Assembly (NCBI RefSeq): GCF_000317615.1
Contig: NC_019780.1
Coordinates: forward strand, 1,323,840-1,387,839
Reading direction: 5' to 3'
Origin: Dactylococcopsis salina PCC 8305
Lineage (GTDB): Bacteria; Cyanobacteriota; Cyanobacteriia; Cyanobacteriales; Rubidibacteraceae
DNA length: 64,000 bases
Shown here one piece after another: positions 3,651 to 26,356 of this stretch. A program made the position numbers and the translations under genes. Within the stretch, counting starts at the first letter, position 1. Each line of letters opens with the position of its first letter. The notes under the pieces were generated by a model. That model was not told where the DNA came from. It saw nothing but the letters and a program-made list of their open reading frames with translations, and did not search any database.

Positions 3651-3909
3651 TTATACCATTTTTGAAAAGTCAACCCCCTATAATCCCCCCTAACCCCCCT
3701 TTGAAAGGGGGGAATAATGAGTTGGTATCTAGCGCCCGATGATTGGGGGGAATAATGAGTTGGTATGTAGCGCCCGATGAAAGGGGGGAATAATGAGTTG
3801 GTATCTAGCGCCCGATGAAAGGGGGGAATAATGAGTTGGTATCTAGCGCCCGATGAAAGGGGGGAATAATGAGTTGGTATCTAGCGCCAATTATTCACGC
3901 ATGGTATTA
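3651..3909. repeat. MITE-like element (family A) with internal 38-bp tandem expansion
   Basis: Tips are inverted: TTATACCAT at 3651 and ATGGTATTA ending at 3909. Inside lies the palindrome CCCCCCTTTGAAAGGGGGG (about 3694-3712). A 38-bp unit carrying GGGGGGAATAATGAGTTGG and TAGCGCCCGAT then follows at 3703, 3741, 3779, 3817 and 3855 (last partial). A 108-bp copy without the expansion lies inverted at 62900-63007, and a diverged relative at 34570-34676. The array ends directly at the next gene, so any promoter of that gene is in or beside it. Confidence 0.8.
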
Positions 3910-4212
3910 GAAAACATAATTAAATTCATGGATGATATAGATGCAATTTCTTGGTCGTTAATTGTTCGAGAACTGCGACAGCGACTTAACCTTTCTCAAG
4001 AAAGATTAGCGCAACAACTGGGAGTTTCCTTTCAAACTGTTAATCGTTGGGAAACTGGAAAAGTAAATCCTTCTCCTATGGCAACTCAATTAATTAAGAA
4101 AACACTGATTGATTTAGGAAAAGATGGTCAAGACTTATTAGATCAATACTTGATTTTAATGGAAATGGGTGATAGTTATGCAGGTGGAACTAGAAGAAGT
4201 TTTGTTAAATAA
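3901..4212 (+). CDS. Xre/Cro-type helix-turn-helix regulator
   Basis: Small DNA-binding protein, probably the regulator of the following gene run. The HTH_3 fold is clear: RELRQRLNLSQERLAQQLG, then VSFQTVNRWETGKVNPSP, followed by a helical tail. ATG 3901 lies in the repeat tip (ATGGTATTA). ATG 3928 (MDDIDAISW, 94 residues) is an equally good or better start because it leaves the protein free of repeat-derived residues. An in-frame ATG at 3853 falls inside the tandem array and is rejected. The end overlaps the next gene by 35 bases, suggesting translational coupling. Target and ligand are unknown. Confidence 0.8.
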   Translation: MVLENIIKFMDDIDAISWSLIVRELRQRLNLSQERLAQQLGVSFQTVNRWETGKVNPSPMATQLIKKTLIDLGKDGQDLLDQYLILMEMGDSYAGGTRRSFVK

Positions 4213-4821
4213 GGGAGAGTTAAAACGTTGGGTAGAATTAGACTCTTTTCGTTATAATGCTCTCGTTTATTATGTGATTATTTTAAGTTTAATTGAAACG
4301 CCAGAAACAGAAAGAAAGGGAGAACTTAATGCGTCGATTCAAGCGTTTGGCGATCGCGATCTTAGTCCTTTTCTAGAAATTCTATTTAAGCTATTACTGT
4401 TTTTAGTAGAGTTATTAAAATTACAAGAGTTTCTAAAAAAAGAGGGAAAAACATCACGCTTGTTAACTTATTCACTGATGTAAAAAATCATAACCAAGTC
4501 ATTTATCAGATTCAGGTTTTAGATGAACTCAGTTCAGTAGGAAATCAAGTGAGTTTAAACGATCGCGCCACCGTTTTAGAAGCACTCAAAATCACGAAAC
4601 AAAACTTAATTCAGGCTTTGAAAACCGATCGCTTTGCCGTAGATTTAGCCTCAATGAGAAGTTTACACATTCAAGAACAGTCTAGCGAATATGGAAAATT
4701 ATTAAATGAGGCTCTACAAATTGGAGTGAGTTTACAAGACGAACTAGAAGGAAAAATGTTTAAGGCTTCTTCTGAAAAAGATGTAAATTTAGATAACCTA
4801 GAGGATGAAAAAAGTGAGTAA
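4178..4821 (+). CDS. Conserved-looking protein split by a -1 frameshift at an A7 run
   Basis: Two overlapping frames look like one protein. Frame one (ATG 4178, MQVELEEVLLNKGELK) stops at 4483. Frame two is open from 4388 to 4821 and has no good start at its head, yet reads as protein from GKNITLVNLFTDVKN on. A -1 shift at 4435-4441 joins them into about 214 residues ending in LDNLEDEKSE. The second half has an amphipathic helix (LEALKITKQNLIQALKTDR) and a LLNEALQIGVSLQDEL segment. Function unknown. Its stop overlaps the ATG of the next gene (TAATG), so it is part of the operon. It may instead be two proteins or a frameshift mutant. Confidence 0.6.
4435..4441 (+). other. Candidate -1 slippery heptamer A_AAA_AAA
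   Basis: Seven A residues sit in the phase X_XXY_YYZ relative to the upstream frame (codons CTA AAA AAA GAG). This is the arrangement used for programmed -1 frameshifting, and homopolymer runs also permit transcriptional slippage. The shift leads straight into the 4441-4821 frame. No stable downstream pseudoknot was checked. A sequencing or mutational indel would look the same. Confidence 0.5.
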
Positions 4822-5576
4822 TGGGAATTATTTATATCGGCGATCGAGAGACTGGAAAAACAAACTTAGCAATGGAACTCGCCAACCCAGATCATCAATA
4901 TGTCCAAGTTAATTCTCCCGACTATGAAGAACTAAAACGCTTACTTTACAGTGAAGAAAAAGGAGGAACAAGAGCCACTCCTAGCGAACAAGCCACCATT
5001 GAAAGAAATCTAGAAATCCAAGTCCAATTACCCACAGGAAATAAACAAGTAATGCTGGATTGGATCGATACCCCAGGGGAAATCTGGCGCAAAAGTTGGC
5101 AAGCAGACAACCCAACGGAATGGGAAAATTTTTTAGAAACCATTAAAGAAAGTCAAGGAGTTTTATTAATTATTCCGCCATACAGAGAACTATTAAAACC
5201 TGGGATTGATGTTCCTGAAGACAACTTTATCACTAAAGAACAGTGGTGTAATCGGTTTCGGCGCTGGCTAGACTTTTTCCGTTTAGACTGTCCAAATGCC
5301 AAACATTTACTGATTTGTCTCAGTATGGCTGACTTATTCTGTGACCCGAAACAAGAGGCAAAAAAACTCGCCTATCATCCCTATAACTCAAAACTAAATT
5401 GGCAACAACGAAACGAATATGTGTATAAAAAATACTTTCGACCAATTCAATCGGATATTAAAAAACTGAATCAAAGTATCTCAGGTTTATCAGTACGATG
5501 CTTTATTACCAGCATTTACAACCGAGAACTTTTAGAACTGCCTTGGATTTATTTAGGTAGCTTTTTAGCGGTGTAG
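4821..5576 (+). CDS. P-loop GTPase-like protein 1 of 3
   Basis: Nucleotide-binding protein of 251 residues. Walker A is GDRETGKT at residues 7-14 and a G3-like DTPGE at 83-87. LSMAD near residue 170 may stand in for NKxD. It starts one base before the end of the split gene (TAATG) and ends 4 bases before the next GTPase, so the three are co-expressed. The layout recalls TRAFAC-clade 'double GTPase' pairs reported from bacterial conflict systems, but that placement is inference. No membrane segment is seen. Confidence 0.75.
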   Translation: MGIIYIGDRETGKTNLAMELANPDHQYVQVNSPDYEELKRLLYSEEKGGTRATPSEQATIERNLEIQVQLPTGNKQVMLDWIDTPGEIWRKSWQADNPTEWENFLETIKESQGVLLIIPPYRELLKPGIDVPEDNFITKEQWCNRFRRWLDFFRLDCPNAKHLLICLSMADLFCDPKQEAKKLAYHPYNSKLNWQQRNEYVYKKYFRPIQSDIKKLNQSISGLSVRCFITSIYNRELLELPWIYLGSFLAV

Positions 5577-5580: not shown

Positions 5581-6393
5581 ATGGGAAACATTTGTGTAAT
5601 TGGACCAAGAAGGTCTGGAAAAACTACATATTTAGCAGCGTTAGCTTATTGGCCAGATAAAACCGAAACCAACCAAGTAGAAATTCAACCCTTAAATGAT
5701 GAATCAAGAAATTTAGCTGATAAAGCGGAAAACATTATCCGACAAGGATCAACAGTAGAACCTACTCGTGTTGAAGAAGTGGGAAGCGTTGACGACTTAC
5801 CTTATTATTCTTTCAACATTGAAGCAAAGTTATCGTTTTGGAGTAAAAAAGAATCCATCCAACTCAACGCCAGAGACTATCCTGGAGAGATTTTTGAAAA
5901 GATCGCTGAACCGAATTTAGCTGATTCCTTTCACGAAGAATTCATTGATGAATGTTTGATGAATGATGTGACAGGATGTCTGATTTTATTAACCGCTTGG
6001 GAAGGAAGCAACGATAACTTTTATGACCGCGTGATGGGGAAATTTTTGGAATTAATGGATATGCGCGATCGCGGCGACAATCTCAGACTCGCCATTGCAC
6101 TAAGTAAATGTGAACGCGGCGAACTTTGGCCAGGACGCATTGATCCCGAAACCGAATTATTTAAACGTTATCTCCCCCGCATGACCAACACCTTACGAAA
6201 AAAAATGTCTCCCAAAAACCTACGTTTCTACGCCATTTCCACCTTTGGCGTATTAGCACGCAACGATCCACGACCGAACCGCATTGATGAAATTGGCTTG
6301 AACAGAAGGGCTTCCACACTGCGAGACGAACGCAACTGGAAACCCTATAACATGATTCCCCCTTTGTATTGGCTAAGTGGAGGAAAAGCATGA
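5581..6393 (+). CDS. P-loop GTPase-like protein 2 of 3
   Basis: 270 residues, with GPRRSGKT at 8-15, DYPGE at 99-103 and LSKCE (NKxD-like) near residue 200. It is clearly paralogous to the third GTPase: both share SGKT followed by Y-(L/M)-A-(A/S)-LAYWP, the ARDYPGE/CKDYPGE motif and an ending of P(L/I)YWL. It is more distant from the first. Likely a cytoplasmic molecular switch working with its neighbours. A short palindrome (CCCCCAATTTTGGGGG, about 6406) separates it from the third copy. Confidence 0.75.
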   Translation: MGNICVIGPRRSGKTTYLAALAYWPDKTETNQVEIQPLNDESRNLADKAENIIRQGSTVEPTRVEEVGSVDDLPYYSFNIEAKLSFWSKKESIQLNARDYPGEIFEKIAEPNLADSFHEEFIDECLMNDVTGCLILLTAWEGSNDNFYDRVMGKFLELMDMRDRGDNLRLAIALSKCERGELWPGRIDPETELFKRYLPRMTNTLRKKMSPKNLRFYAISTFGVLARNDPRPNRIDEIGLNRRASTLRDERNWKPYNMIPPLYWLSGGKA

Positions 6394-6473: not shown

Positions 6474-7400
6474 ATGATTAATTGGCTGAAGAGAAAAAAC
6501 AATCCTCAAGGGGATCACAGTGAACCGAACTTTATTGATCAAGAAGCAACTCTGAGATTAGTTGGCGATCGAAAATCAGGAAAAACCGCTTATATGGCTT
6601 CTCTCGCTTATTGGCCCAACGCTGATCCGAAGAGTCCCGTACAAAATGTTAACCCAGTGGGAGACGAAGCCACGCAACTCATTAACCAGGCCCAAAACAT
6701 TTTAGAACAAGGGTTGCAACTCGAACCCACACCCCTTGCTGCGTCAGCAGATGAAGTCAAAGACTACACCCTCAGCATCAGCTTAAAAGATCAGTTTTCT
6801 TGGAAAACTCCCACCGCCACTCTCAAAAATCAACTTCTCCAACTCAACATCAGTTGTAAAGACTATCCAGGGGAGTTTTTTAGCGACTTATTACAAAAAA
6901 TAGGTGATCCGCTTTTAGATGATTACCTCGAAGACTGCTTACAAGCCACAGGGATTTTACTCTTACTCGATGGAACAGCCCACAAAAAAGATAGCCAATA
7001 CGCGATGGGGATTGATCAGTTTTTAACCCAACTGGATCAAACCGACATCGGCGGAATCCAACGGCGAGTTGCAATGGTGATTAATAAATGTGAGCAATCA
7101 GAACTATGGATTAATCGCTATAAACCCAGAGATTTAGCCAGTAAGCGGTTTCCCAATGTGTATCGAAAATTAGAAAGCTGGTCACGAATGGGAGGAGGTC
7201 AAGTGGATTGTTTCACAACGTCCGCCTTTGGAATGTTGGGGAGTCGTTATCCCGAACCCAATGCTAAAAAAATCGAGCGCGATCGCGGCGGCACTCGTTC
7301 CATCATCAAAAAACCCAAGCAGTGGCGACCATTCGGCTTAGTTGCACCGATTTACTGGTTATGTACTGGAGTCCGTCATAAAGAACTAGATCAGGGGTAA
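6474..7400 (+). CDS. P-loop GTPase-like protein 3 of 3
   Basis: 308 residues with an extra N-terminal basic stretch (MINWLKRKNN). Walker A GDRKSGKT at 31-38, DYPGE in the SCKDYPGEFF segment, and INKCE as the NKxD-like base-recognition loop. Paralogue of the preceding gene by motif order and by the shared SLAYWPN and IYWL segments. It ends 4 bases before the 717-residue protein. Hydrolysis cannot be confirmed from motifs alone. Confidence 0.75.
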   Translation: MINWLKRKNNPQGDHSEPNFIDQEATLRLVGDRKSGKTAYMASLAYWPNADPKSPVQNVNPVGDEATQLINQAQNILEQGLQLEPTPLAASADEVKDYTLSISLKDQFSWKTPTATLKNQLLQLNISCKDYPGEFFSDLLQKIGDPLLDDYLEDCLQATGILLLLDGTAHKKDSQYAMGIDQFLTQLDQTDIGGIQRRVAMVINKCEQSELWINRYKPRDLASKRFPNVYRKLESWSRMGGGQVDCFTTSAFGMLGSRYPEPNAKKIERDRGGTRSIIKKPKQWRPFGLVAPIYWLCTGVRHKELDQG

Positions 7401-7404
7401 ACCA

Positions 7405-9558
7405 ATGACCACAGCAAAAGTTATCACCATCCACGAATTTAGCACAGGCATCCAAGCCCAGCGCACCGAAGACGGAAACTGGGTGTCTCAAGGATTCACG
7501 GGAAAATATATGAACACCACCCTTGATCCGATTCCGTCGATCGTTCGTAAAGCCATTAGTAACCGCCTTTTTGCCGTTGCAGAAGGAAAATCAAGAAACG
7601 AACCCGCTTTAATTGGTCGTGAAATCACAGAAAATAATCAAACTTGGTCAGTAATTGCAGTGGTGAGCAAGGGAATTGATGATGGTGGGCGCAGTGCTTC
7701 CATGTACCGCTACTTTCTCAGCAAAGGGAAAAACCAGTTAACTCCCATCTTGCGTTGGCTATTCACCGTTAAAAAAGACTATGTATTTAATCCCTTTGAC
7801 TATCAAGAAATTGGTCAACCTCACTACGTCGATCGAAACAAAAATAGTCCTCCTCTAGATAAAACAGACCACCTCATTGAACTAGCCGCAAGAGAAGCAC
7901 CGATTATTATTGCTAGTGATGATCAAACAATTAAACCCCTAATTCTCAACAGTTTAGCCGCGAAAAAAGCCGAAGAAAATGGTTATCCGATCGCGTGGGC
8001 TTATCAAGTCGAAGCCCTAGAAAAACCGCGCAGTTTCCAAGTCATTTATCCCGCCAGCGCTAAAGCCGAACAAATCCTGCGTAATAGTTTAGCTAGTAAC
8101 CCCAATGCCCCTGTTTTTATTGCCAACGAGCAAGACATAAACACAGCCATTAAAACCATTTTCAGGAAAGGAAAGATTGAACTAGAGCAACTTTTGACCC
8201 TAGAAAGAGCCTTACAAAACCCACAGATTACAGAAGAGTATTGGCAAGGTTTATTTAATGGACAAGGAGCAGATCAAGCCCTTAAAAGTGGCATTTATAG
8301 CGCCCAAATGGTCAGATTGCTTGCGCTTCAAGCTGCTATTTTACCAGCCACCCTTCCGAAAGTTTTAGGATGGCTGGAGAAGCGGGAGAAAAACGAAGAA
8401 GAAAAGAAACTTTTTATCGACTTTCAAAAGCAAGTTCGCAAAATTTTAGCAAGAACTAATCCTGAATCTGAATTTTTAGCCTTAAAGCAACAGGTTATAG
8501 AAGGAGTAAGGTTGCTGATTCCTTCTGTTATCAAACAACCTAATTTATTAAAGCCTACCGTTTCTCTTCTAAAACCACAAAATGGTTTATGGGGACATTT
8601 CTATCATTATCACGTAAAACAAGAGATCGATCGAGACTTAACCACAGCACCTCAAATTCGGGGCTATCAACCCAACGCAGTTTTCACCTTATCAGCAGAA
8701 CCACTGTGGGAAGAACTCTTTCAAAATATTAAATCAACCTGGGAACGTAACCGAGTTTCCCCAAAAGAGGAATATTTACCCCTCGCCGAATTTTTTGAAC
8801 AAGTTTCTTATTATCCAGCATCAGCCTTGTTTTATCACATTGCTTGGGGAGAAGTACCAAGAGAAGTTTTTGATGCTTGTTCAGGGCGTGGAAACCATTC
8901 CCGAAAGCAAATTTATGGCGTTTGGGTAGAAAGACACTTTACTTTATTAGAACTAATATTGAATCAAATTGTAGAAATAGGAGGCTCGATTGTGCCAGTT
9001 TATATGTTTGCACCATTGCTCATTTTAAGTTTGCTTGTAGGAGGAATAGCTTTGCCAAGAGCTTTCAACATTAATTTATTTTCTCCTAATAAGAGTGATC
9101 TAAAAGAAGTTAAAAAGCAGTTAGAGCAGTTAACAGAAGAGAATCGAAATTTGGAGCAAAGAGAAAAAAAACTAGAAACACAACTAGGACAAATTAAGTT
9201 TCAAGAAGACTTAAATAAAGCAGTAGCAAAATTTGATAGTCAAACTAGAAAATCAATTCAAGAACTGCTTCAAGAAATTCCTGAAACATCTGGCAAGTCA
9301 GAGACGGATAAAATTATCTTTTTAAGAAAAAATATTTTTAATAATGATCAACTTCAAGCCAAGGCTATTTTAGAAGATAATCCCCAAAGACAATGGAAAG
9401 AAGAATGGGTGAGAGCAGTTTATCAATATCAACAAAACAATAATCTTCCCACAGATGGAATTATTACATTTTTTGAGGATTATAGAAAGCAAAATGGAAC
9501 TACAATTTATGCTCTCTATCAGGATATAAAAAATTCTAGTAAGGTTCCAGGGGGATGA
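7405..9558 (+). CDS. GTPase-associated large protein with one membrane segment and coiled coil
   Basis: 717 residues. Residues 1-150 form a globular beta-rich N-terminus (IHEFSTGIQ to FNPFDYQEIG). A long helical middle follows, then one strong membrane segment near 530-552 (VYMFAPLLILSLLVGGIAL). A charged coiled coil (LKEVKKQLEQLTEENRNLEQ, about 565-605) and a helical tail complete it. Position right after three GTPase genes and overall size suggest the role of the GAP1-type partner in GTPase-centred conflict systems. I infer this from context and general shape, not from a motif. It could tether the GTPases to the membrane. Confidence 0.6.
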   Translation: MTTAKVITIHEFSTGIQAQRTEDGNWVSQGFTGKYMNTTLDPIPSIVRKAISNRLFAVAEGKSRNEPALIGREITENNQTWSVIAVVSKGIDDGGRSASMYRYFLSKGKNQLTPILRWLFTVKKDYVFNPFDYQEIGQPHYVDRNKNSPPLDKTDHLIELAAREAPIIIASDDQTIKPLILNSLAAKKAEENGYPIAWAYQVEALEKPRSFQVIYPASAKAEQILRNSLASNPNAPVFIANEQDINTAIKTIFRKGKIELEQLLTLERALQNPQITEEYWQGLFNGQGADQALKSGIYSAQMVRLLALQAAILPATLPKVLGWLEKREKNEEEKKLFIDFQKQVRKILARTNPESEFLALKQQVIEGVRLLIPSVIKQPNLLKPTVSLLKPQNGLWGHFYHYHVKQEIDRDLTTAPQIRGYQPNAVFTLSAEPLWEELFQNIKSTWERNRVSPKEEYLPLAEFFEQVSYYPASALFYHIAWGEVPREVFDACSGRGNHSRKQIYGVWVERHFTLLELILNQIVEIGGSIVPVYMFAPLLILSLLVGGIALPRAFNINLFSPNKSDLKEVKKQLEQLTEENRNLEQREKKLETQLGQIKFQEDLNKAVAKFDSQTRKSIQELLQEIPETSGKSETDKIIFLRKNIFNNDQLQAKAILEDNPQRQWKEEWVRAVYQYQQNNNLPTDGIITFFEDYRKQNGTTIYALYQDIKNSSKVPGG

Positions 9559-9584
9559 CATCAGCAAATGCTGTAGATAAACCC

Positions 9585-9834
9585 TGTAGGTTGGGTGAAA
9601 CGAAGTGAAACCCAACATCACACCACCCATTTCTAAATGTTGGGTTTTGTGCCTTAACTCAATCTACTCACTCGTGTTGATTATACAAACTAATGAAAAT
9701 TCAGGAACAAATTATTCGATTTCAAAATGTTGGGTTTCGTGCCTCCACCCAACCTACGATTATGAGGAATACTACTACCGATTTCAAAATGTTGGGTTTC
9801 GTGCCTCCACCCAACCTACGATTATGAGGAATAC
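9585..9834. repeat. GTTGGGT/ACCCAAC repeats with a 62-bp tandem duplication
   Basis: The 56-bp units at 9717-9772 and 9779-9834 are identical or nearly so. Each contains AAATGTTGGGTTTCGTGCC and CCACCCAACCTACG, able to form a hairpin. A diverged copy precedes them from 9585 to about 9645. The block fills the gap between the GTPase-associated gene and the next membrane protein; no gene is seen in it. Confidence 0.75.
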
Positions 9835-9842
9835 AAAATAAA

Positions 9843-10961
9843 ATGAGAATCTATCTTTATTTACTCGCTGGAATTACCTCTCCCCTGATTGGCTGGAACA
9901 TCGCTCAATTTATCCTCACCGATGCAGGATTTTTAACCCAGTTTCCTGAATTGGTTTTATTTCCCTGTGTTGCCATTTCTCTTGCTATTGGCATGGTGAC
10001 AAACGAAACCTTCATCGGAAGTCCCACTAAACTTAAATTAGGGTTTAGGCGACTGAAAATTCCCATCCTCATCGCGATCGGTCTAGGATTAATTTTAGGC
10101 TTAATTGCTGCGGGAATTTCTCAAATCTTCTTTTTACCCCAAATTACCCTTCCCACTGCCATTACTCGCTCGATCGGTTGGCTATTAATTGGCATTCCTG
10201 TAGGGTTGGCTGAGGGTTTAACCTGGTATTGGCAAAGTTTAGAAGCAGGTGATCCCAAACGGTTTCGCCAGCGTTTATTAACCAGTTTTCTAACCGCCGC
10301 GATCGCGAGTTTATTAGCAGCTTTGATCTTTGAATATCTCCGTAATTCTTTTGAAACAATTCCGATCTGGTTTCGCCAAATTGAAGATATTTTAGGCTTT
10401 TGTTTACTAGGTTTTCTTCTTGGTTTAGGGTTTAGTCTTACAAATTCTCCCAGCTATATGGTCGCCTTAAGAGCAGGTTCAGGATTTGAATATACCAATA
10501 GCCTTTTTGACGAAGAATTAATGGACTTACAAATTGATGAAACAGACACAGAAAAAACCGATATTATTCCCGCCTTAAATGGAAAACCTCGAATCAATAC
10601 ATCGCGCCTCAAATTTGTCAGTGATAGCGAATTACAAGACATTGAAGAAGGCTTATCGATTCAACTCCCCCCCAGAGGAAAAGTCATCTTTGGAACACAA
10701 GAAGACGCTGATATTTACATTCCGAACTTACCCCTATTTACCGCAGAATTAGAACTCAAACCACGAGAAACTTTACTAAAAGTTAATCCCCAATATAAGA
10801 AACAAATAGAAATTAATGGCGAACGCCTTGGCTCAAAACAAACCATTTCCCTAAAACATAACGATCTGATTACTTTTTACCCCAAAAAACAGGAGGATGA
10901 AGATGAAGAAAAAATGTACCGCTTTGTTTACTACAATCGCTTCTTGGATCCCCAGGCTTAG
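9843..10961 (+). CDS. Multi-pass membrane protein with FHA-like C-terminal domain
   Basis: 372 residues. Five or six hydrophobic helices lie in residues 5-205 (for example LYLLAGITSPLIGWNIAQFI and IAIGLGLILGLIAAGI). A cytoplasmic acidic linker follows, and then a beta-rich domain at about 270-350 (IQLPPRGKVIFGTQEDADIY... SLKHNDLITFYPKK). That domain has the spacing of an FHA fold (GTQEDADIYI as the GR/SDI strand; NDLITF as the late strand) but lacks the SRxH and STNG core, so phospho-Thr binding is doubtful. The end overlaps the vWA gene by 59 bases. Confidence 0.65.
   Translation: MRIYLYLLAGITSPLIGWNIAQFILTDAGFLTQFPELVLFPCVAISLAIGMVTNETFIGSPTKLKLGFRRLKIPILIAIGLGLILGLIAAGISQIFFLPQITLPTAITRSIGWLLIGIPVGLAEGLTWYWQSLEAGDPKRFRQRLLTSFLTAAIASLLAALIFEYLRNSFETIPIWFRQIEDILGFCLLGFLLGLGFSLTNSPSYMVALRAGSGFEYTNSLFDEELMDLQIDETDTEKTDIIPALNGKPRINTSRLKFVSDSELQDIEEGLSIQLPPRGKVIFGTQEDADIYIPNLPLFTAELELKPRETLLKVNPQYKKQIEINGERLGSKQTISLKHNDLITFYPKKQEDEDEEKMYRFVYYNRFLDPQA
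10891..10896 (+). promoter_or_regulatory. Ribosome binding site fixing the start of the secreted vWA protein
   Basis: A perfect AGGAGG ends 6 bases before ATG 10903. It abuts the in-frame ATG at 10897, which is too close to be used. It lies inside the upstream reading frame, supporting translational coupling. Confidence 0.75.
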
Positions 10962-18758: not shown

Positions 18759-20147
18759 ATGCTTAACGTATCCATTACCCCCCATCGAGAATTTTTACCC
18801 AGTGAACAAGAGAATCAAAAACTGTTCACAATGCTCAAATTACGACCTACTCAAGAAGTCGCAAAAAGTCGTCCTTCTACCTCATTTGTTTTTGTTATTG
18901 ATACAAGTGGATCAATGCGAGAAATTGTAGAAGGAGAAACCAAAGCAACAGGAGAAATTGCAGAAATTGACGGTCAACGCTATAACGTTGTTACTGGCGG
19001 AAAAACCAAAATTGACATTGTAATTGACTCCTTAAAATCACTCATTCATTCTGGAAAATTAGGAAGCCGCGATCGCGTTTCCATTGTTCAATTTGACGAC
19101 CAAGCCTCCACTATCATAGAATTGACACCAGCCACAGAAACTCAACAATTAGAACAAGCCATTGATCAATTAAAAGACTATTCTGGTGGCACAAGAATGG
19201 GGTTAGGTTTACGCCGCGCCTTTGAACAAGTTTCTAACCAAGAAATGACCAGTCGGCGGGTTTTAATTTTCACCGATGGTGCTACTTTTGATGAAGATCA
19301 ATGTGAAAAAATTGCCCCTGAATTGAGCGAATATAACATTCCCATTACCGCTTTAGCAGTAGGAGAAGAATACAACGAAAACTTGTTAACCAAACTCAGT
19401 GATACAACAGCAGGAAGTTTATTTCATGTCGTAGCAGGAACAGGAATTGGCACTCAGATTGCAATTAGTAATCTTCCTCAAACTATTCTCGAAGAATACA
19501 CTCGCGCCCAAGAAGATGTTATCAATAACTTAGCCCTAACAATTAAAACCGTAAAAGGGGTAAAATTGACTCGCCTAGTTCGTGCTTATCTCACTCCTGC
19601 TGAATTTACTCTCGATGATGACCCCTATCATATTGGTAATGCTTCTGCTAATGATGAGACAATTTTTATTCTAGAATTTACCATTCAATCTCGTCCCGCT
19701 TCCCGTGTTCGTATCGCACAATTAGGCTTAACCTATGATGTTCCTGGGAAAAACTATCGCGGTGAACTTCCACCACAAAACTTAGTGGTGCAATTTGTTG
19801 CTGGTTCTAATGTTGCAACACCAGTGGATCAAGAAGTGATGCACTATATGCAACAATGCAATATTTCCGATATGGTAAAACGGGCAACACAACTCGCAGA
19901 AAATGATCCTGATAAAGCCGAAGAAATGATTGAAAAAGCCCGTCGCATGACTGTAAAAATGGGCAATCAAGAACTAACAGAATCTCTCAGTGGGGCGCAA
20001 GATGAACTACGAAAAACGCGGAAAATTTCTGCAGGAACTCGCAAAACCGTAAAGATGGGGGCGAAAGGAAAAACCGTAAAAATGAACACCGATGATGTCA
20101 ATGGTGACTTAACAGAAGACAAAATTCGTGACCTTACTGGAACTTAG
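18759..20147 (+). CDS. Cytoplasmic vWA protein with three TVKM motifs
   Basis: 462 residues, no signal or membrane segment. The vWA domain has DTSGSM at 48-53, GGTRMGLGLRRAF and LIFTDGATFDE: complete MIDAS. A beta-sandwich middle (VKLTRLVRAYLTPAEFTLDD ...) and a helical C-terminus follow. The tail carries three Thr-Val-Lys-Met motifs with the Thr at 398, 430 and 439, each after a basic or Met residue, which could be kinase targets read by an FHA domain. With the FHA, PP2C and kinase genes downstream it recalls the TerY-P triad (vWA, phosphatase, kinase). GGAGA lies 10 bases before ATG. Confidence 0.85.
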   Translation: MLNVSITPHREFLPSEQENQKLFTMLKLRPTQEVAKSRPSTSFVFVIDTSGSMREIVEGETKATGEIAEIDGQRYNVVTGGKTKIDIVIDSLKSLIHSGKLGSRDRVSIVQFDDQASTIIELTPATETQQLEQAIDQLKDYSGGTRMGLGLRRAFEQVSNQEMTSRRVLIFTDGATFDEDQCEKIAPELSEYNIPITALAVGEEYNENLLTKLSDTTAGSLFHVVAGTGIGTQIAISNLPQTILEEYTRAQEDVINNLALTIKTVKGVKLTRLVRAYLTPAEFTLDDDPYHIGNASANDETIFILEFTIQSRPASRVRIAQLGLTYDVPGKNYRGELPPQNLVVQFVAGSNVATPVDQEVMHYMQQCNISDMVKRATQLAENDPDKAEEMIEKARRMTVKMGNQELTESLSGAQDELRKTRKISAGTRKTVKMGAKGKTVKMNTDDVNGDLTEDKIRDLTGT

Positions 20148-20222
20148 CCCCCCATAATCCCCCCTAACCCCCCTTTGAAAGGGGGGAATGAAACAGATTT
20201 GAAAGGGGGGAATGAAACAGAT
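20148..20222. repeat. CCCCCCTTT/AAAGGGGGG palindrome with short duplication
   Basis: CCCCCCTTTGAAAGGGGGG is followed by two copies of GAAAGGGGGGAATGAAACAG. Same repeat core as the family A MITE. It could act as a weak hairpin between the vWA and FHA genes. Confidence 0.65.
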
Positions 20223-20250
20223 ACTAATAACAAAAAAGGAGAAAATAATC

Positions 20251-20835
20251 ATGACAATTACTTGTGATGCTTGCGGTTACGATAACGTAGAAGGAACAGA
20301 ATTTTGTGAAGCCTGTGGTTCTGAATTAACTGTGGCTACCCCTGAACCGACTCCCACACCTGAACCCGCTTCAGAGGACGATCGCAGTAGTTCCATTCGC
20401 GATCGCCTACACGGAAAATCTGAACCCGAACCAACACCCGAACCAGAAACCACTCCCTCTCAACCTCAACCCACCCCCACACCCACTCCCGTTAACGCTG
20501 CGGTGAAATTGGTGTCGAAAGTACCTAACGCACCCATTCCCGAATTTTCCCTAGAAGAAGAAAGTGTGGTCATTGGTATTTTTGATCCAGACTCAGGTCC
20601 AGTTGAAATTGATTTAGAACAGTTTCCTGGTAGTGATACCGTTTCTCGTCAACACGGGGAAATTTATCAAGAAAATGGGGTTTGGAAAATACAGGATTTA
20701 GGGTCAACTAATGGCATTTTTCTAAAACCATCCGGTCAACGACGATTTAGCGCCAGAATTACACAACCCGAAACCTTAAATATTGGCGACGAAATCGCGA
20801 TCGCGAAGATTCGTTTTGTTTTTCAATCTGTTTAA
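20251..20835 (+). CDS. Zinc-ribbon plus FHA-domain protein
   Basis: 194 residues from ATG 20251; AAGGAG is about 9 bases upstream. N-terminal zinc ribbon with Cys 5, 8, 19 and 22 (CDACG, CEACG), then a Pro/Thr/Glu linker, then a full FHA domain at about 100-194. Its phosphopeptide-binding core is intact: DTVSRQHGEI and LGSTNGIFLK. This is the one canonical FHA in the island, so it is the best reader of phospho-Thr made by the kinase at 24224. The kinase carries a similar N-terminal zinc ribbon. Confidence 0.9.
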   Translation: MTITCDACGYDNVEGTEFCEACGSELTVATPEPTPTPEPASEDDRSSSIRDRLHGKSEPEPTPEPETTPSQPQPTPTPTPVNAAVKLVSKVPNAPIPEFSLEEESVVIGIFDPDSGPVEIDLEQFPGSDTVSRQHGEIYQENGVWKIQDLGSTNGIFLKPSGQRRFSARITQPETLNIGDEIAIAKIRFVFQSV

Positions 20836-20891
20836 AAAGTAGTAGGGTGGGCACCGCCCACCAAATTTATAGAGTCGCTTTAAAAAATCAA

Positions 20892-22613
20892 ATGGATGTC
20901 CAAATCGCGAAAAATCAAGAAGTAATTATTAACGAATTTTCCCTGATTCCAATGTCCTACCTTGGTCAACTTGCAACAGGGGTTGATTACTTTGAAATCC
21001 AACTCAAAACACCCGAAAGCGAAGAAAATTCAGAACAAAAAGCCTTACTTCGCATTGGTTCAACCGAAGGCGCGATCGAGCGAGAACTAAGCATCAGACA
21101 AACCATTGGTGATTATAAACTCATTGGAGAACTCATCACTCACACCACAGAAGAATCAGTCATCATTGATCTTCAATCCTTCCAAAAATCTTTTTGTAGA
21201 ATCAACTTAACCAAACAATTACCAAATGAAACAGAAACCCAATCTGAAAATGACGACTTAGAAGAAGAATATTACGAAGAAAAACCCCTCACCGAAGACT
21301 TATCGCCCAAGAAACATTTAGTCATCTCTCATCTCCCCACCGAAGAAAATAGTTTAGAATTTTGGCTACAACAAGAACATACTTTAGAAACCTCCCTCGC
21401 CTTAGCCAGTCAAATTTGCCAATGTTCTCGTTATCTCTACCAGCAAGGATGGTGTTTAGTGGATATTTCTCCTCAATTTATTCAACTGGGAACACCGATT
21501 CAAATCTTTGATTTAACTCACATTTATCCTGTCGAAGAAACCTTATCAATTGGAATTTTAGGAAACTATAGCGCCCCAGAACTTTCTTATGGGAATTATC
21601 CCATTAAGCCGTTAATGAGTAGTTACATGGTAGCTTCCTTTCTTTATCATTGTATTTACTATCAACCTGCTACTATTGATGAGTTCAAATCTTTAGAAAA
21701 TTCTCCTTTTCCTCAACTGTATCAACTGCTAAAAATTGGTTTATCCCTGATTCCCGAAGATCGTTTTTCTCTCGATCAATTCCTCAACTTACTGGTGCAA
21801 ACTCGTCAACAGTTACGATTAAAAAAACATCAATGGTCTGTTGCTAGTTTCTCTACAGTTGGACTTTCTACCAGTCGTTTAACTAATGAAGATAACTATG
21901 GTTTTAGACAGTATAAACTAGGAATAGAAAAAACAGTGATGTTAGCAGTGGTTGCTGATGGAATGGGAGGAACAGCCAAAGGAGAAATTGCAAGTCAAGT
22001 AACAGTAGAAACAATTATTAATGAACCCATACCGCCCGACTTAAACTCTCTTGAAAATTGGCAAAATTGGCTTAACCAATTAGTTGAAAAAGCCAATGGT
22101 GAAATTATGAAACAAACCAAAGACGGCGGAACAACTTGTAGTGTAGTCTGCATTAATAATAACCAATTAATGATTGCTCATGTGGGAGATAGTCGCATCT
22201 GGCTACAAAGAAATGGTTATGTTTGTCAGTTAAGCGAAGATCATTCAATGGTTGCTATGCTGTTAGCAAGTGGTCAAATTAGTTATGAAGAAACCTTTGA
22301 TTATCCTGAACGTGGGGTGTTAACTCGTTCTCTGGGTTCAAAAGCTCATTTAAGTCCAGGCTATGTTCAAAATTTACAACGATTTGAAGAAAATTATTCC
22401 GTTTCTCTTGAAGATGGCGACATCATTTTCCTCTGTTCTGATGGCGTTTGGGATTTAGTTTCTGCTGCAGAAATCGCCGAAAAAATTGAGCAAGGAATCC
22501 CTTTACAGTCTAGTGTTGATCAGGTCAGGGAATTAATCTTACAGCGAGGCGCGAACGACAATGCTACCTTGTTAGCCCTTCAATTTCACTCTCACCCAAT
22601 TAACTACTGTTGA
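20892..22613 (+). CDS. Pseudokinase-PP2C phosphatase fusion
   Basis: 573 residues from ATG 20892; the GTG at 20847 lies in a GTAGGGTGGGC repeat and is rejected. The N-terminal half looks like a decayed protein kinase: GWCLVDISPQFIQLG where HRDLKPxN is expected, IFDLT for DFG, and a preserved YSAPELSYG (APE) motif. The C-terminal half, from about residue 320, is a complete PP2C: NEDNYG, VADGMGGTAKG, GGTTCSVV, HVGDSRIW, LTRSLG, CSDGVWDLV and NDNATLL carry the metal-binding Asp residues. It should remove phosphates placed by the kinase downstream. Confidence 0.85.
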   Translation: MDVQIAKNQEVIINEFSLIPMSYLGQLATGVDYFEIQLKTPESEENSEQKALLRIGSTEGAIERELSIRQTIGDYKLIGELITHTTEESVIIDLQSFQKSFCRINLTKQLPNETETQSENDDLEEEYYEEKPLTEDLSPKKHLVISHLPTEENSLEFWLQQEHTLETSLALASQICQCSRYLYQQGWCLVDISPQFIQLGTPIQIFDLTHIYPVEETLSIGILGNYSAPELSYGNYPIKPLMSSYMVASFLYHCIYYQPATIDEFKSLENSPFPQLYQLLKIGLSLIPEDRFSLDQFLNLLVQTRQQLRLKKHQWSVASFSTVGLSTSRLTNEDNYGFRQYKLGIEKTVMLAVVADGMGGTAKGEIASQVTVETIINEPIPPDLNSLENWQNWLNQLVEKANGEIMKQTKDGGTTCSVVCINNNQLMIAHVGDSRIWLQRNGYVCQLSEDHSMVAMLLASGQISYEETFDYPERGVLTRSLGSKAHLSPGYVQNLQRFEENYSVSLEDGDIIFLCSDGVWDLVSAAEIAEKIEQGIPLQSSVDQVRELILQRGANDNATLLALQFHSHPINYC

Positions 22614-22638
22614 TGAGACTTAATCTTAGGAGGTCAAA

Positions 22639-23253
22639 ATGCTACAAACACCCACCACTCCCGAAACAGAAACCCTATTAATGGCACTACCGAACTCGAT
22701 CGCGCTACAAGTGACCCCAGAACAGTTTACCACCTTAGCGGCTGCGAATCGAGATTTACGACTAGAAAGAACATCTCAAGGAGAATTAATTGTGAATCCA
22801 CCCGCAGGTTGGGAAACAGGAGAACGTAACTCTAGCTTAACTGGACAACTTTATCAATGGTATGAAGCCAACGAAACGCTTGGAAAAGTCTTTGACTCCT
22901 CCACTGGTTTTACCCTACCCAATGGCGCAATTCGTTCTCCTGATGCGTCTTGGGTGAGTCGAGAACGTTGGGAAGCACTCACCCCAGAAGATAAAACAAC
23001 CTTTCCGAAAATTTGTCCCGACTTCGTTGTTGAATTACGATCAAAAAGTGATAAATTGCCACCCCTCCAAGAAAAGATGAGGGAATACCTCGAAAATGGC
23101 GCAAAACTGGGCTGGTTAATCGATCCACAAAGTTCGCGGGTAGAAATTTATCAAACTGGAAAAGAGACAGAAATTTTAGAAAATCCCACTGAATTATCAG
23201 GTGAACCCGTCTTAACAGGATTCATCCTCAACTTAACTCGAATTTTGAATTGA
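22639..23253 (+). CDS. Uma2 family (DUF820) PD-(D/E)xK protein, copy 1
   Basis: 204 residues; AGGAGG is 6 bases upstream of ATG. The restriction-like core is SPDASWVSRERW, then PDFVVELRSKSDKL (Glu-x-Lys type) and AKLGWLIDPQSSRVEIY. Uma2 proteins are abundant in cyanobacteria and their substrate is unknown. A second copy lies at 23358 with almost the same DNA except for the middle. The genes may belong to the signalling unit or be later arrivals. Confidence 0.85.
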   Translation: MLQTPTTPETETLLMALPNSIALQVTPEQFTTLAAANRDLRLERTSQGELIVNPPAGWETGERNSSLTGQLYQWYEANETLGKVFDSSTGFTLPNGAIRSPDASWVSRERWEALTPEDKTTFPKICPDFVVELRSKSDKLPPLQEKMREYLENGAKLGWLIDPQSSRVEIYQTGKETEILENPTELSGEPVLTGFILNLTRILN

Positions 23254-23255
23254 TT

Positions 23256-23346
23256 CCACTCCCTTGTTTCCCCCCTTTCAAAGGGGGGTTAGGGGGGATA
23301 AAACCACTCCCTTCCCCCCTTACAAAGGGGGGTTAGGGGGGATAAA
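23256..23346. repeat. Two copies of the CCCCCCTTT/AAAGGGGGG repeat between Uma2 genes
   Basis: Each unit reads CCACTCCCTTG-like lead, palindrome, TTAGGGGGGATAAAA. The same unit continues after the second Uma2 gene (23978-24200), so that gene sits within the array. Confidence 0.8.
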
Positions 23347-23357
23347 AGGAGGTCAAA

Positions 23358-23972
23358 ATGATCCAAACAACCACAATTCCCGAAACGGAAACTCTATTAA
23401 TGGCACTACCGAACTCGATCGCGCTAAAAGTGACCGAAGAACAGTTTACCACCTTAGCGGCTGCGAATCGAGATTTACGGCTAGAAAGAACATCCCAAGG
23501 AGAATTAATTGTGAATCCGCCAACTGGTTGGGAAACTGGAGAAGAGAATTGGAAAATTGCTGGAGAATTATACATCTGGTGGCGTAATTTTGGAGAAGTG
23601 GGAAAAGTCTTTGACTCCTCCACAGGTTTTACCTTACCCAATGGCGCAATTCGTTCTCCTGATGCGTCTTGGGTGAGTCGAGAACGTTGGGAAGCACTCA
23701 CCCCAGAAGATAAAACAACCTTTCCGAAAATTTATCCCGACTTCGTTGTTGAATTACGATCAAAAAGTGATAAATTGCCACCCCTCCAAGAAAAGATGAG
23801 GGAATACCTCGAAAATGGCGCAAAACTGGGCTGGTTAATCGATCCACAAAGTTCGCGGGTAGAAATTTATCAAACTGGAAAAGAGACAGAAATCTTAGAA
23901 AATCCCACTGAATTATCAGGTGAACCCGTATTAACAGGATTTATCCTCAAGTTAGCTCGAATTTTGAATTAA
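23358..23972 (+). CDS. Uma2 family (DUF820) PD-(D/E)xK protein, copy 2
   Basis: 204 residues, RBS GGAGG before ATG. Identical or nearly identical to copy 1 except residues about 53-72, where this copy has EENWKIAGELYIWWRNFGEV. The catalytic-type PDFVVELRSKSDKL is intact. The pattern of high identity on both sides of a divergent block points to gene conversion after duplication. Confidence 0.85.
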   Translation: MIQTTTIPETETLLMALPNSIALKVTEEQFTTLAAANRDLRLERTSQGELIVNPPTGWETGEENWKIAGELYIWWRNFGEVGKVFDSSTGFTLPNGAIRSPDASWVSRERWEALTPEDKTTFPKIYPDFVVELRSKSDKLPPLQEKMREYLENGAKLGWLIDPQSSRVEIYQTGKETEILENPTELSGEPVLTGFILKLARILN

Positions 23973-23977
23973 TTCCT

Positions 23978-24202
23978 CTTCATTCCCCCCTTTCCAAGGG
24001 GGGCTAGGGGGGATAAAACCACTCCCTTGTTTCCCCCCTTTCCAAGGGGGGCTAGGGGGGATAAAACCACTCCCTTGTTTCCTTTCAAAGGGGGGCTAGG
24101 GGGGATAAAACCACTCCCTTGTTTCCTTTCAAAGGGGGGTTAGGGGGGATAAAACCACTCCCTTGTTTCCCCCCTTTCCAAGGGGGGCTAGGGGGGATAT
24201 AA
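23978..24202. repeat. Five-unit tandem array of palindromic repeats
   Basis: Units of about 44-48 bp, each with CCTTTC(A/C)AAGGGGGG, (T/C)TAGGGGGGATAAAA and then CCACTCCCTTGTTTCC. It runs up to about 20 bases before the kinase start, so the kinase promoter or RBS lies at its end. No spacers differ between units, so it is not a CRISPR. Confidence 0.85.
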
Positions 24203-24223
24203 AAACTTAAATCACAGAAAAAA

Positions 24224-26356
24224 ATGTCTATTACCTGTCCCTCTTGTTTAGCCGAAAACGAAGAAACCGCCGCCGCTTGTCTCGCTTGCGGAACTCCTCT
24301 ACAAACTGACAATAGTTCAGCTAATTCTAATTTTTCCACCTATCAGCTTCCTCCCCAAACTTATCTCAAAGAAAAACGATATCTAATCGAGAAAACACTC
24401 GGAGAAGGAGGCTTTGGGATTACCTATCAAGGAATAGATTGTCAAACCTCTAGCACGATCGCGATTAAAGAACTTTGGCCCGAAAAATCCGTCAGACAAG
24501 GTTTAAATATTACTTGGTCTTCTAGTATTCCTCCCGCCGAAAGACAACAACAAATCCTGAAATTTAAACTCGAAGCCCAACATCAGGCAAAATGTAAACA
24601 TCCCAATATTTGCCAAGTTTATGACTGGTTTGAGGAAAATAATACTGCCTATATTATTATGCAGTTTATCTCTGGAAAAACTTTATACCAGTTGCTACAA
24701 GAAAAACAGTCAATTCCTGAAACAAAACTCAAAAAATATTTTATCGAAGCAACAGAAGCACTCGCAGTTATTCATCAAAATAATTTACTTCACCGTGATT
24801 TAAAACCCGATAATATTCTAATTGATTCTGAAGATAACGCGATCCTAATTGACTTTGGCGCAACCAAAGAATTTATTGCTGGTCAAACCAGAGAAATGAG
24901 TGTTACCTTAACAGCAGGATATGCTCCCCCAGAACAATACAATTATAAAAGTAAACGATTCCCCGCTACTGATATTTATGCTCTTTGTGCTTCTATTTAT
25001 GAATTAGCAACGGGTCAAATTCCTGAAGCATCGATCGAGCGATTAACAGATAATAATGATCCCCTGATTCCACCGCGACAGTTAGCGCCTCATCTCTCTC
25101 CGCTTCTGGAAAGAGTGATTCTCACAGGAATGAATTTAAGAGTAGAAAATCGTTTTCAAAGCGCAGAAGAACTGGTTGACGCAATGAAAGGAAACTTTGT
25201 TTCTCCTCTCCATAAAAAAGCGCAGAACTTAGTTAAAAATCATCAACTGGAAGAAGCTGTCGCCACTTATGAAAAATGTTTAGTTAATGAACCTGATAGT
25301 GAAAACGTTGCTGTAGAACTCGCATTAGTACAAACCCATTTAGATGATAAAAAAGCAGAATCCGCCGCGAATCAAGTGGTTAAAATCAATCCCAATGAAG
25401 GAAGAGCCTATGGTATTCTAGGATTGGTTTTCTGTCGTCGTGGAAATTGGGAAAAAGCTGAAAAAAATCTTAAAAAAGCAGTACAATTAACCTCAAAAGA
25501 AGCCTGGATTCAAGCGAATTTTGCTTGGTCGTTAGGAAAACTTCAAAAATGGGAAGAAGCAGAAACAGCTATTAATCAAGCATTAGAATTAAACCCTTAT
25601 TGTGTTTTTTCTTTGGGGTTAAAAAGTTGGATTACTGCTCAACAAAAACAATGGAAAACTGCGATTCAAGCAGCAAGACAGGCTCTCTTTAAGGCTAAAC
25701 AAAACCCAGACCAAGATTTAACAACTATCAAAGAATGGGTTTATCCCTGTTTATTACTTGCGCTAGAGAAAGCAGTTGTTACTAAAAATGCAAAAGATGT
25801 CGATCGCTGTCTCAATGAATATCTAACCGAACTTCCTAATAGTAGCTTTGCTTGGGGATTTAAAGGCTGGAAACAATCTCAATCAGGAATTGATCAAGAA
25901 GTTCTTTCTCACTTCCAAAAAGCAGTAAATCAAGCACAAATCCCCTATTGGATATTAATAAATCTCGGAATTACTCAAGAATATTTAAATCAAACCACAG
26001 CATCGATCGAAACCTACGAAAGCATCATCAACAGATTTCCGAATCAGGCGTTAGCTTATGTCAGATTAGGAACAAGTTTAGCAAAATTAGAACAATGGGA
26101 AAAAGCGATTCCTCAACTCAAACAAGCAATTGCTTTAGAAAATTCGATCGCGCAGGCTCATCATAACTTAGCCTGGAGTCAACTCCAAGCCATGATTTCA
26201 TCGCAACAAAATTATAACTATCATCAAATTGTTAAATCTTATCAAAAAGCAATTGAATTATATCAGCAACAATCCAGAAACGACTTATCAGACAAACTTC
26301 AGAACACTTTTAAAGATGTAGGGATTCAATTAGGGTTTGCTGAAAAAGTTCATTAG
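24224..26356 (+). CDS. Zinc-ribbon Ser/Thr protein kinase with TPR repeats
   Basis: 710 residues. N-terminal zinc ribbon (CPSC, CLACG); kinase domain at about 45-320 with GEGGFGITYQ, the IAIKELWP Lys, LHRDLKPDNILID, LIDFGATKEF and GYAPPEQY, so active by motif. From about 335 a long run of TPR-like helices follows (AYGILGLVFCRRGNWEKAE, AWSLGKLQKWEEAETAI and more), probably a partner-binding arm. This is the phospho-donor of the island. The last residues GFAEKVH and the stop are encoded in the tip of a repeat element starting at 26332, so the native C-terminus was replaced. Confidence 0.9.
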   Translation: MSITCPSCLAENEETAAACLACGTPLQTDNSSANSNFSTYQLPPQTYLKEKRYLIEKTLGEGGFGITYQGIDCQTSSTIAIKELWPEKSVRQGLNITWSSSIPPAERQQQILKFKLEAQHQAKCKHPNICQVYDWFEENNTAYIIMQFISGKTLYQLLQEKQSIPETKLKKYFIEATEALAVIHQNNLLHRDLKPDNILIDSEDNAILIDFGATKEFIAGQTREMSVTLTAGYAPPEQYNYKSKRFPATDIYALCASIYELATGQIPEASIERLTDNNDPLIPPRQLAPHLSPLLERVILTGMNLRVENRFQSAEELVDAMKGNFVSPLHKKAQNLVKNHQLEEAVATYEKCLVNEPDSENVAVELALVQTHLDDKKAESAANQVVKINPNEGRAYGILGLVFCRRGNWEKAEKNLKKAVQLTSKEAWIQANFAWSLGKLQKWEEAETAINQALELNPYCVFSLGLKSWITAQQKQWKTAIQAARQALFKAKQNPDQDLTTIKEWVYPCLLLALEKAVVTKNAKDVDRCLNEYLTELPNSSFAWGFKGWKQSQSGIDQEVLSHFQKAVNQAQIPYWILINLGITQEYLNQTTASIETYESIINRFPNQALAYVRLGTSLAKLEQWEKAIPQLKQAIALENSIAQAHHNLAWSQLQAMISSQQNYNYHQIVKSYQKAIELYQQQSRNDLSDKLQNTFKDVGIQLGFAEKVH

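Follow-up and report, generated by a model that had tools for sequence, protein, structure and literature searches.

A mobile two-module cluster of GTPases, von Willebrand factor A proteins and a kinase-phosphatase set in Cyanobacteria, with a possible role in envelope signalling

A conserved gene neighbourhood

Why are GTPases, von Willebrand factor A (vWA) proteins, a Ser/Thr kinase, a PP2C phosphatase, FHA proteins and exported lipoproteins gathered on one strand of a cyanobacterial chromosome, and do they form a single system? The question is raised by a locus of Dactylococcopsis salina PCC 8305, within a stretch of 64,000 nucleotides (the window; G000:C1:1323840-1387839) of a one-contig 3.78-Mb genome. 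Feature coordinates are window positions; G codes stand for genomes (G000 being the window's own), C codes for contigs and L codes for loci. An initial annotation had reported about 20 close-set + strand genes at 3901-26356, with an Xre regulator first and a Ser/Thr kinase last, and this outline holds. When short open reading frames (ORFs) overlapping longer ones were dropped from the ORF list (one on + and seven on -), 22 consecutive + strand ORFs spanned 3853-26356 (~22 kb), opening with an Xre-type protein (Pfam HTH_3, 1.1e-12) and closing with a kinase bearing TPR repeats (Pkinase, 9.7e-42). Spacing is -65 to +104 bp, with two exceptions: 284 bp (9559-9842) 5' of a gene termed TM-FHA, for transmembrane (TM) and FHA-like, and 251 bp (23973-24223) 5' of the kinase gene. 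A Pfam scan of all 22 products recovered the GTPase, vWA, FHA, PP2C, DUF1460 and IMS assignments made earlier.

A profile scan yielded 107 related loci, of which 80 were kept; all 80, which have GTPase 2, the second of three GTPases, were analysed and are cyanobacterial. Synteny was counted as same-strand genes anywhere in the fetched flank, using only loci with a flank long enough. GTPase 1 lies upstream of GTPase 2 in 72/77 testable loci, with GTPase 3 downstream in 69/76 and a 717-aa regulator downstream in 61/65, and the neighbourhood thus bears out the conservation across cyanobacteria that the initial annotation had proposed to check. Farther along, TM-FHA and an exported vWA protein (vWA1) occur together in 46 of the 56 loci having 9 kb downstream, and their genes overlap in 41 of 45 adjoining pairs (with mechanically called starts). 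Any lipoprotein family was found in 27/56 loci, and any gene of the distal module (module B) in 28/56, the flank often stopping short of module B.

Twenty-four regions of relatives were also mapped gene by gene. The common order is GTPase 1, GTPase 2, GTPase 3, regulator, TM/FHA, vWA1, lipoproteins, vWA/TM/FHA, 127-aa protein, vWA, Zn-FHA, PP2C, and kinase. It is nearly complete in G058, G042, and G017. Gaps interrupt it in G014 and G010: neither has a lipoprotein match, G014 has its PP2C homologue on a separate contig, and G010 lacks GTPase 3. The rest of the mapped regions retain one of the modules, an isolated gene or a remnant. Because the same order recurs across many cyanobacterial genera, the gene set is more than a chance assembly: the GTPases, vWA proteins, kinase/PP2C/FHA set and envelope proteins are one conserved neighbourhood. 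The combined system proposed in the initial annotation stands, envelope proteins included, but without the Xre regulator and the DUF1460 enzyme as core members, neither of which has a family member in the 80 loci.

Co-occurrence of the two modules

At 1e-10, GTPase 2 was matched in 24/386 genomes of the phylum (17/142 genera), and at 0.001 in 13/60 nearer genomes, the window's genome being counted in each case. The module B vWA gene (at 1e-60) was found in 17/386 genomes, each of them one of the 24 that have GTPase 2, and in no genome without it (Fisher 1.9e-24 by genome and 2.7e-15 by genus, phylogeny uncorrected). The initial annotation had described two gene sets combined here; given the restriction of the module B vWA gene to GTPase 2 genomes, in 17/17 cases, the cluster is a two-module system rather than a local fusion of two systems. 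In G265, vWA and GTPase 2 lie ~428 kb apart on one contig, and in G025, G030, and G050 each module has a contig of its own, which contig breaks may explain in some cases. Eleven of the genomes searched have a PP2C homologue better than 1e-100. A 560-aa protein at L097:8729-10411 (G042:C26) contains both a kinase domain (residues 14-225, Pfam) and a GTPase-3-like part (3.7e-42 by BLAST; Pfam lists the kinase only), and in G043 an FHA homologue stands 2.3 kb from a DO-GTPase2 gene (34.4 bits), and homologues of PP2C and of the kinase lie further out.

Mobility, insertion, and remnants

The cluster is a mobile, patchy accessory system. The regulator was found in 8/72,556 plasmid records, all cyanobacterial and some near-identical, comprising two conjugative and four mobilizable plasmids among the eight. 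GTPase 2 was found in 10 plasmid records; matches in Haliovirga and Enterococcus (E 0.1 and 0.2) were taken as chance. In Gloeothece PCC 7822 and Nostoc linckia NIES-25 the cluster sits on conjugative plasmids, and plasmid B of Trichormus variabilis ATCC 29413 (35,762 bp; L206) holds the genes from GTPase 1 through to the kinase, as judged by annotation and order. The cluster fills about half of this plasmid. A Megablast search of the GTPase region against the plasmids gave no match, and a scan of genome contigs with the regulator alone returned 73 stretches, of which none was confirmed.

In the window, mazG ends at 3474 and PBP2 at 26563, with the cluster between them. In congener G003, PBP2 (37706-39544) and mazG (40220-41080) adjoin with ~0.7 kb between them, PBP2 having thiE and DUF1517 as its other neighbours and mazG having priA; the same genes flank the cluster in the window. 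In three other congeners, PBP2 does not adjoin mazG in the stretches fetched. The cluster in the window is probably an insertion between mazG and PBP2; loss in G003 would look alike, and we infer the direction of the event (insertion rather than loss). GC content is 38.6% in the island, 44.0% and 47.6% in its flanks, and 40.9% in the rest of the window. Comparison of the 675-bp empty-site interval with the island edges gave no more than a 10-base match (E 0.32), so the exact joints are not defined, and the window contains no tRNA that could serve as an insertion site.

Five further genomes of the genus were searched (one 85% complete), and none has a GTPase 2 match. Congener G001, which is without a GTPase 2 match, keeps a scar of the PP2C gene elsewhere (G001:C1:675860-678309; L095), in which residues 12-152 and 525-588 persist, the middle is gone, and three Uma2 genes follow. 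As a separate observation, priA lies directly upstream of GTPase 1 in G017 (G017:C1:3936680) and L120, ~5.6 kb from a PP2C homologue in G051 (G051:C1:2395625), and near the island in the window; this proximity may reflect a shared site or coincidence.

GTPases and the 717-aa regulator

GTPase 1 (4821-5576; GDRETGKT, DTPGE) and GTPase 2 (5581-6393; GPRRSGKT, DYPGE, SKCE) score 26.8 and 27.4 bits against DO-GTPase1, and GTPase 3 (6474-7400; GDRKSGKT, DYPGE, NKCE) scores 26.0 bits against DO-GTPase2, the cut-off being 27; family consensus sequences score 21.9, 22.8, and 29.7 bits, respectively. At or just under the cut-off, the three GTPases appear to fall within the DO-GTPase families or next to them. 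These families are TRAFAC-type P-loop GTPases. A Glu in Walker B is characteristic of DO-GTPases (in the accessible part of PMC7159879), and all three window GTPases have one in DTPGE/DYPGE; in GTPase 2 this residue (Glu103) is kept in 9/10 aligned sequences. The GTPase 2 profile matched P-loop regions in the PDB (best 0.0016). Another cyanobacterial context for a DO-GTPase was seen at L094:10205-13294 (G022:C5), where a 1029-aa protein combines GUN4 with a DO-GTPase2 domain.

The GTPase-associated membrane regulator (7405-9558) has a predicted layout of N-domain (~1-235), helical middle, TM helix (~532-550, by hydropathy), coiled coil, and PG_binding_1-like tail. AlphaFold2 modelled it with a mean predicted local distance difference test score of 86.8 for the full 717 aa (34 sequences) and 91.2 for residues 1-242 (30 sequences). 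The N-domain is best conserved, at a median 45% identity to the window protein vs. 29, 19, and 24% further on. With VIA-align, in which rows within 1 are tied and Z <8 is flagged as a possibly common arrangement, the N-domain alone gave TagF 9t0n as the top row (Z 6.8, rmsd 4.3, 191 aligned), followed at Z 4.3 by TagF 6iz8, TagF 2qnu, a Lokiarchaeal longin (8yqg; 4.1, 123) and DENND1B (5.0, 186). DENND1A (4.0), KICSTOR-GATOR1-SAMTOR (3.9), Lst4 longin (3.7), GATOR1-KICSTOR (3.6), SEA (3.6), and the FLCN complex (3.5) came next, with PAS/LOV and others from 3.5 down. KICSTOR, GATOR1, and SEA chains presumably contain longin domains. Since the top 11 rows are all TagF or longin/DENN-type GTPase-regulator structures, the N-domain modestly resembles TagF and longin/DENN folds. 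A sequence search of the N-domain against the PDB found nothing credible (best 0.38). The full-length regulator was also tried as a known fold and rejected, given that only the N-domain yielded a coherent list and the helical rows were taken as common arrangements.

The tail scores 20.3 bits against PG_binding_1 in the window protein (cut-off 23), and the model was matched at E up to 1 in 9/34 regulators (best 1.1e-10). Membership of GAP1, a protein with N, M, and C domains, was considered for the regulator and rejected in Pfam profile scans: neither the window regulator nor the N-domain consensus matched a GAP1 model, and none was among the 25 of 49 Pfam families listed for 34 regulators; a distant homology may still exist. 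GAP1-M was found in 0/146 genomes (control positive), PF20013 is absent from nine actinobacterial plasmid records, and a GAP1 query gave two weak matches only, to kinase genes. At seven loci (L159, L167, L115, L116, L148, L149, and L179), three to five regulator-like genes stand in tandem or near-tandem behind the GTPases, which suggests a diversified sensing part.

Envelope proteins and a wall-enzyme slot

The TM-FHA gene (9843-10961) encodes a polytopic membrane protein by hydropathy, with an FHA-like tail recognised by eye. It overlaps the gene of vWA1 (10897-12258), an exported protein with a C-terminal TM helix. Pfam places vWA domains in three cluster proteins, the vWA1 match (VWA_2, 0.008) being under the cut-off; its family consensus gave 1e-5. 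The remaining membrane components are a vWA protein with TM helices (15944-17434; VWA 1.3e-22, hydropathy) and its vWA-less TM paralogue (17475-18347), recognised by cross-matches of relatives (Yop-YscD_cpl gives only 0.097), each with an FHA-like tail by eye; such tails on three membrane proteins add to the initial annotation. The three lipoproteins of that annotation were confirmed, by eye, from their Cys lipoboxes: lipoprotein 1 (12261-13013), lipoprotein 2 (13003-13830, the likelier start being an ATG at 13003 in an ORF that opens at 12883), both with family members in relatives, and a lipoprotein with an ARC6-like IMS domain (14922-15935; PF13355, 1.6e-23).

Between the latter two lies an exported DUF1460/AmiA-like enzyme (13859-14893, from the likelier ATG start at 13859; PF07313, 4.4e-48), with the lowest GC content in the cluster (29.7%). 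A motif scan located a Cys in DCFLF and a His in HTG, which resemble the DUF1460 catalytic pair. Other loci have a different enzyme in this slot. Among 22 candidate slot proteins 3' of vWA1 in the 80 loci, 10 were chosen for Pfam, of which eight matched Beta-lactamase2 (PF13354), one matched VanY D-Ala-D-Ala carboxypeptidase (L108), and one gave nothing credible (L176); in 3/5 plasmid loci the slot gene is annotated as 'serine hydrolase.' The occupation of one slot by unrelated enzymes of one substrate class suggests that peptidoglycan action is the selected property of the slot.

Module B as a candidate phospho-switch

Module B opens with a conserved 127-aa core protein (18350-18733), which lacks a credible Pfam match, has 23 family members, and had been overlooked in the initial annotation. 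It is followed by a cytoplasmic vWA protein with a Thr-bearing tail (18759-20147; VWA 8.2e-21), a zinc ribbon protein with an FHA domain (Zn-FHA; 20212-20835; FHA 2.9e-10; SRQH, STNG), a PP2C protein (20847-22613; 1.7e-14), and the kinase (24224-26356), which has N-terminal zinc-ribbon-like Cys pairs. The kinase motifs HRDLKPDN and DFG are intact, as are DGMGG, GDSR, and SDGVWD in PP2C. The product of 20847-22613 had been called a pseudokinase joined to PP2C; the PP2C part was recovered by Pfam, and the putative pseudokinase is a reading by eye of an N-terminal half with no Pfam kinase model, no HRD and no DFG. In the vWA tail, Thr420 (RKT), Thr430 (RKT), and Thr439 (GKT) are invariant in 13/13 aligned sequences (the window and 12 of 17 loci with the gene). 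Since the module also supplies an active kinase, an FHA protein and an intact PP2C, the vWA tail is most simply read as a candidate kinase substrate read by FHA.

Proposed mechanism and alternatives

The computed evidence (gene content, order, plasmid carriage, co-occurrence, modest fold resemblance, and slot exchange) leads us to propose, tentatively and short of calling it probable, a mobile two-module envelope signalling system with a peptidoglycan-enzyme output, in which every interaction, the signal flow, the trigger, and the output are features that we infer. Module A, comprising the three DO-type GTPases, the regulator and two membrane vWA/FHA-like proteins, would act as a membrane switch. 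The cytoplasmic TagF/longin-DENN-like domain of the regulator would control the GTPases, and the far side of the regulator, the exported vWA protein and the lipoproteins may touch the wall. Module B (127-aa protein, cytoplasmic vWA, Zn-FHA, pseudokinase-PP2C, and kinase-TPR) would form a reversible phosphorylation switch, whereby the kinase phosphorylates the vWA-tail threonines, Zn-FHA reads them, and PP2C resets the system; the complete module B would function only with module A. The output would be the exported peptidoglycan-active slot enzyme, at this locus DUF1460, whose target would be the wall of the cell itself, either in envelope repair or in self-lysis upon phage attack. The best reading is therefore a mobile envelope-surveillance system that would end in wall remodelling or self-lysis.

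Several findings weigh against this proposal. Nothing in the cluster was recognised as a classical toxin or as a nuclease effector, and the TM-FHA/vWA1 pair was not found in 10/56 loci. GTPase 2 occurs without the module B vWA in 7/24 genomes (G104, G043, G180, G194, G267, G277, and G387), of which G043, G180, G194, and G387 have a single, weaker GTPase match (1e-37 to 1e-55) that may be another DO-GTPase. Of the 11 genomes with a PP2C homologue better than 1e-100, G051 has a full-length one (2.7e-124) with no GTPase 2 match, so that module B depends on module A as far as the vWA is concerned but not in every one of its genes, and regulator-like matches without GTPase 2 occur in G004, G018, G023, and G047; both observations lower confidence. 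In module B, the kinase-like half of the PP2C protein is recognised by eye alone, and Zn-FHA has SRxH and STNG but, by eye, not the usual Arg after Gly. The Z of the regulator N-domain is below 8, where models without a clear match usually reach a best Z of 7 to 8, and Foldseek puts six TagF chains first (E >=3.7e-3, TM-scores <=0.24), then LOV/PAS.

Phage defence and envelope maintenance are both candidate roles of the system. Anti-phage abortive infection of the GTPase-centric conflict class, with the GTPases and regulator setting a threshold and the wall enzyme as suicide effector, is a real possibility, although one we would not expect to hold. It accords with the patchy distribution and plasmid carriage, with the Tolypothrix plasmid copy, where MoxR, caspase, CHAT, and HigB genes lie ~5-17 kb upstream, with the decayed remnant in G001, with the tandem regulator-like genes (up to five), and with the faster evolution of the regulator and lipoproteins (median identities of 32% and 29-34%, vs. 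56-57% for the GTPases). However, PADLOC, given 10 of the 22 proteins, produced matches for three only: mad6 and PD-T4-6 kinase models for the kinase, a match at 2.7e-10 for the PP2C part, and a weak one at 0.0021 for the regulator; no toxic effector was recognised, and neither GAP1 nor FNIII was detected. That the cluster is instead an envelope-stress or wall-remodelling regulator on accessory DNA, with no part in defence, is likewise conceivable and likewise doubtful: the peptidoglycan-type slot enzymes, PG-binding-like tails and lipoproteins would fit, as would the membrane-stress role predicted for a DO-GTPase near Psp genes (in the accessible part of PMC11237479), whereas the lack of a GTPase 2 match in 362/386 genomes and the carriage on plasmids would not.

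The part kinds shared with type VI secretion (kinase, PP2C, and FHA), together with the TagF-like N-domain, could alternatively indicate threonine-phosphorylation control of a secretion apparatus; however, the sheath family VipB was found in 0/9 GTPase-carrying genomes (with Escherichia coli positive among 14 controls), and the absence from 9/9 genomes tested weakens this candidate to the point where it is very unlikely. A chance gathering of unrelated genes in an accessory region, to which the local additions (HTH, DUF1460, and Uma2) lend some colour by showing that the region takes in genes, is hardly credible for the whole and refuted for the core by synteny, given that order is kept across many genera and that unlinked modules co-occur. 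A more specific form of the surveillance proposal is unlikely, though not negligible: a plasmid-borne cyanobacterial immune or self-lysis machine, with paired GTPases governed by a peptidoglycan-bound transmembrane longin-DENN-type regulator, arming through the phospho-Thr vWA tail, and an interchangeable wall enzyme (beta-lactamase-like, VanY, or DUF1460) discharged on the cell's own envelope, which would make it a bacterial counterpart, in fold and logic, of Rag-GATOR/folliculin.

Relation to described systems

DO-GTPase/GAP1 systems are almost wholly missing from cyanobacteria according to the accessible part of a computational study (PMC7159879, eLife 2020), which also reports kinase, PP2C, and vWA genes in 10% of GAP1-N2 neighbourhoods, in actinobacteria only (theme 3), and notes that GAP1 may bear C-terminal TMs. 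The cyanobacterial cluster shares with theme 3, as far as that source goes, DO-type GTPases with the Walker B Glu, a large downstream partner gene whose product may have TM helices at its C terminus, linkage to genes for an active kinase, PP2C, and vWA, and an envelope setting. Its distinguishing features are three GTPases, a regulator resembling TagF/longin-DENN, FHA proteins, lipoproteins, and a wall enzyme that can be exchanged. Because GAP1 was not detected, nor FNIII (none of the 22 ORFs matched it at E <=0.01), we do not file the cluster as a GTPase-centric member; it is best called a putative cyanobacterial variant of that kind. A MoxR AAA+ ATPase is absent from the 22 ORFs, unlike in MoxR-vWA ternary systems.

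The TerY-P triad consists of vWA, PP2C, and kinase in one cluster, and is associated with Ter proteins such as TerD. The same three occur together here, but Pfam found no Ter protein among the 22 ORFs (vWA-TerF-like gives only 17.2 bits, cut-off 29.4), the PP2C has an extra domain, and an FHA protein is added; no paper on the TerY-P triad was found in the literature searched. In eukaryotes, Rag GTPases with GATOR1/folliculin and Rabs with DENN proteins offer a parallel, by fold resemblance only, in a longin/DENN-type regulator of membrane-associated GTPases; the differences are the lack of a credible PDB sequence match, the modest fold scores, and a different GTPase family. The roadblock domain is longin-like. 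In Myxococcus, MglA/MglB pairs a bacterial GTPase with a roadblock-domain GAP (PMC9481161); it is a polarity system, with no kinase, vWA or wall-enzyme arm apparent in the accessible part of that source. The type VI secretion threonine phosphorylation pathway has kinase, PP2C, FHA, and a TagF-like fold in common with the cluster, TagF there binding Fha and repressing secretion through it (per the accessible part of PMC5995506); it is unlike the cluster in that the latter has GTPases and vWA proteins at its centre and occurs in genomes without the sheath family. A published link between DENN and TagF did not appear, there being no TagF occurrence among the matches listed.

The initial annotation knew of no described system with this full content. 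None was found in the literature searched, most subscription journals being outside it; the actinobacterial union of kinase, PP2C, and vWA genes with DO-GTPase/GAP1 is a precedent for part of it, in the accessible part of PMC7159879, and the form not found described is the cyanobacterial one, in which the regulator is of another type and the envelope enzyme exchangeable. The cluster would represent a cyanobacterial branch of systems reported as nearly absent there. It offers a defined core of two modules, a wall-enzyme output that can be exchanged, and a candidate phospho-switch for which three threonines are named. Its presence on a 36-kb plasmid of the cultured T. variabilis ATCC 29413 makes it testable. 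If the regulator domain is truly longin/DENN-like, it would bear on the origin of eukaryotic GTPase regulators.

Local additions and repeats

Some genes of the window cluster are local additions. The Xre-type helix-turn-helix (HTH) gene (3853-4212) is an ORF from 3853 with an alternative ATG exactly at 3901; it is followed by two small ORFs (4169-4483 and 4549-4821), both without a Pfam match. Two accessory Uma2 family genes (22639-23253 and 23358-23972; PF05685, 6.6e-44 and 8.5e-40) separate PP2C from the kinase; neither they nor the small ORFs were in the initial annotation. Across the 80 loci, family members are lacking for the HTH gene, both small ORFs, and DUF1460, and there is a single one for Uma2, away from the cluster, so none of these is core. 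A scan of 7000-26900 for terminators and promoters gave counts not above those of shuffles (35 vs. 46.3 and 14 vs. 19.8) and therefore no information on transcript boundaries. A 37-bp palindromic repeat with G6/C6 arms has 11 copies at <=6 mismatches in the window (3679-3715, 17409-17445, 20153-20189, 23267-23347, 23982-24202, and 62942-62978), seven of them within 23267-24202, where the second Uma2 gene lies. In G001, DNA next to the Uma2 genes likewise matches a copy, and the Uma2 insertion may have been repeat-mediated.

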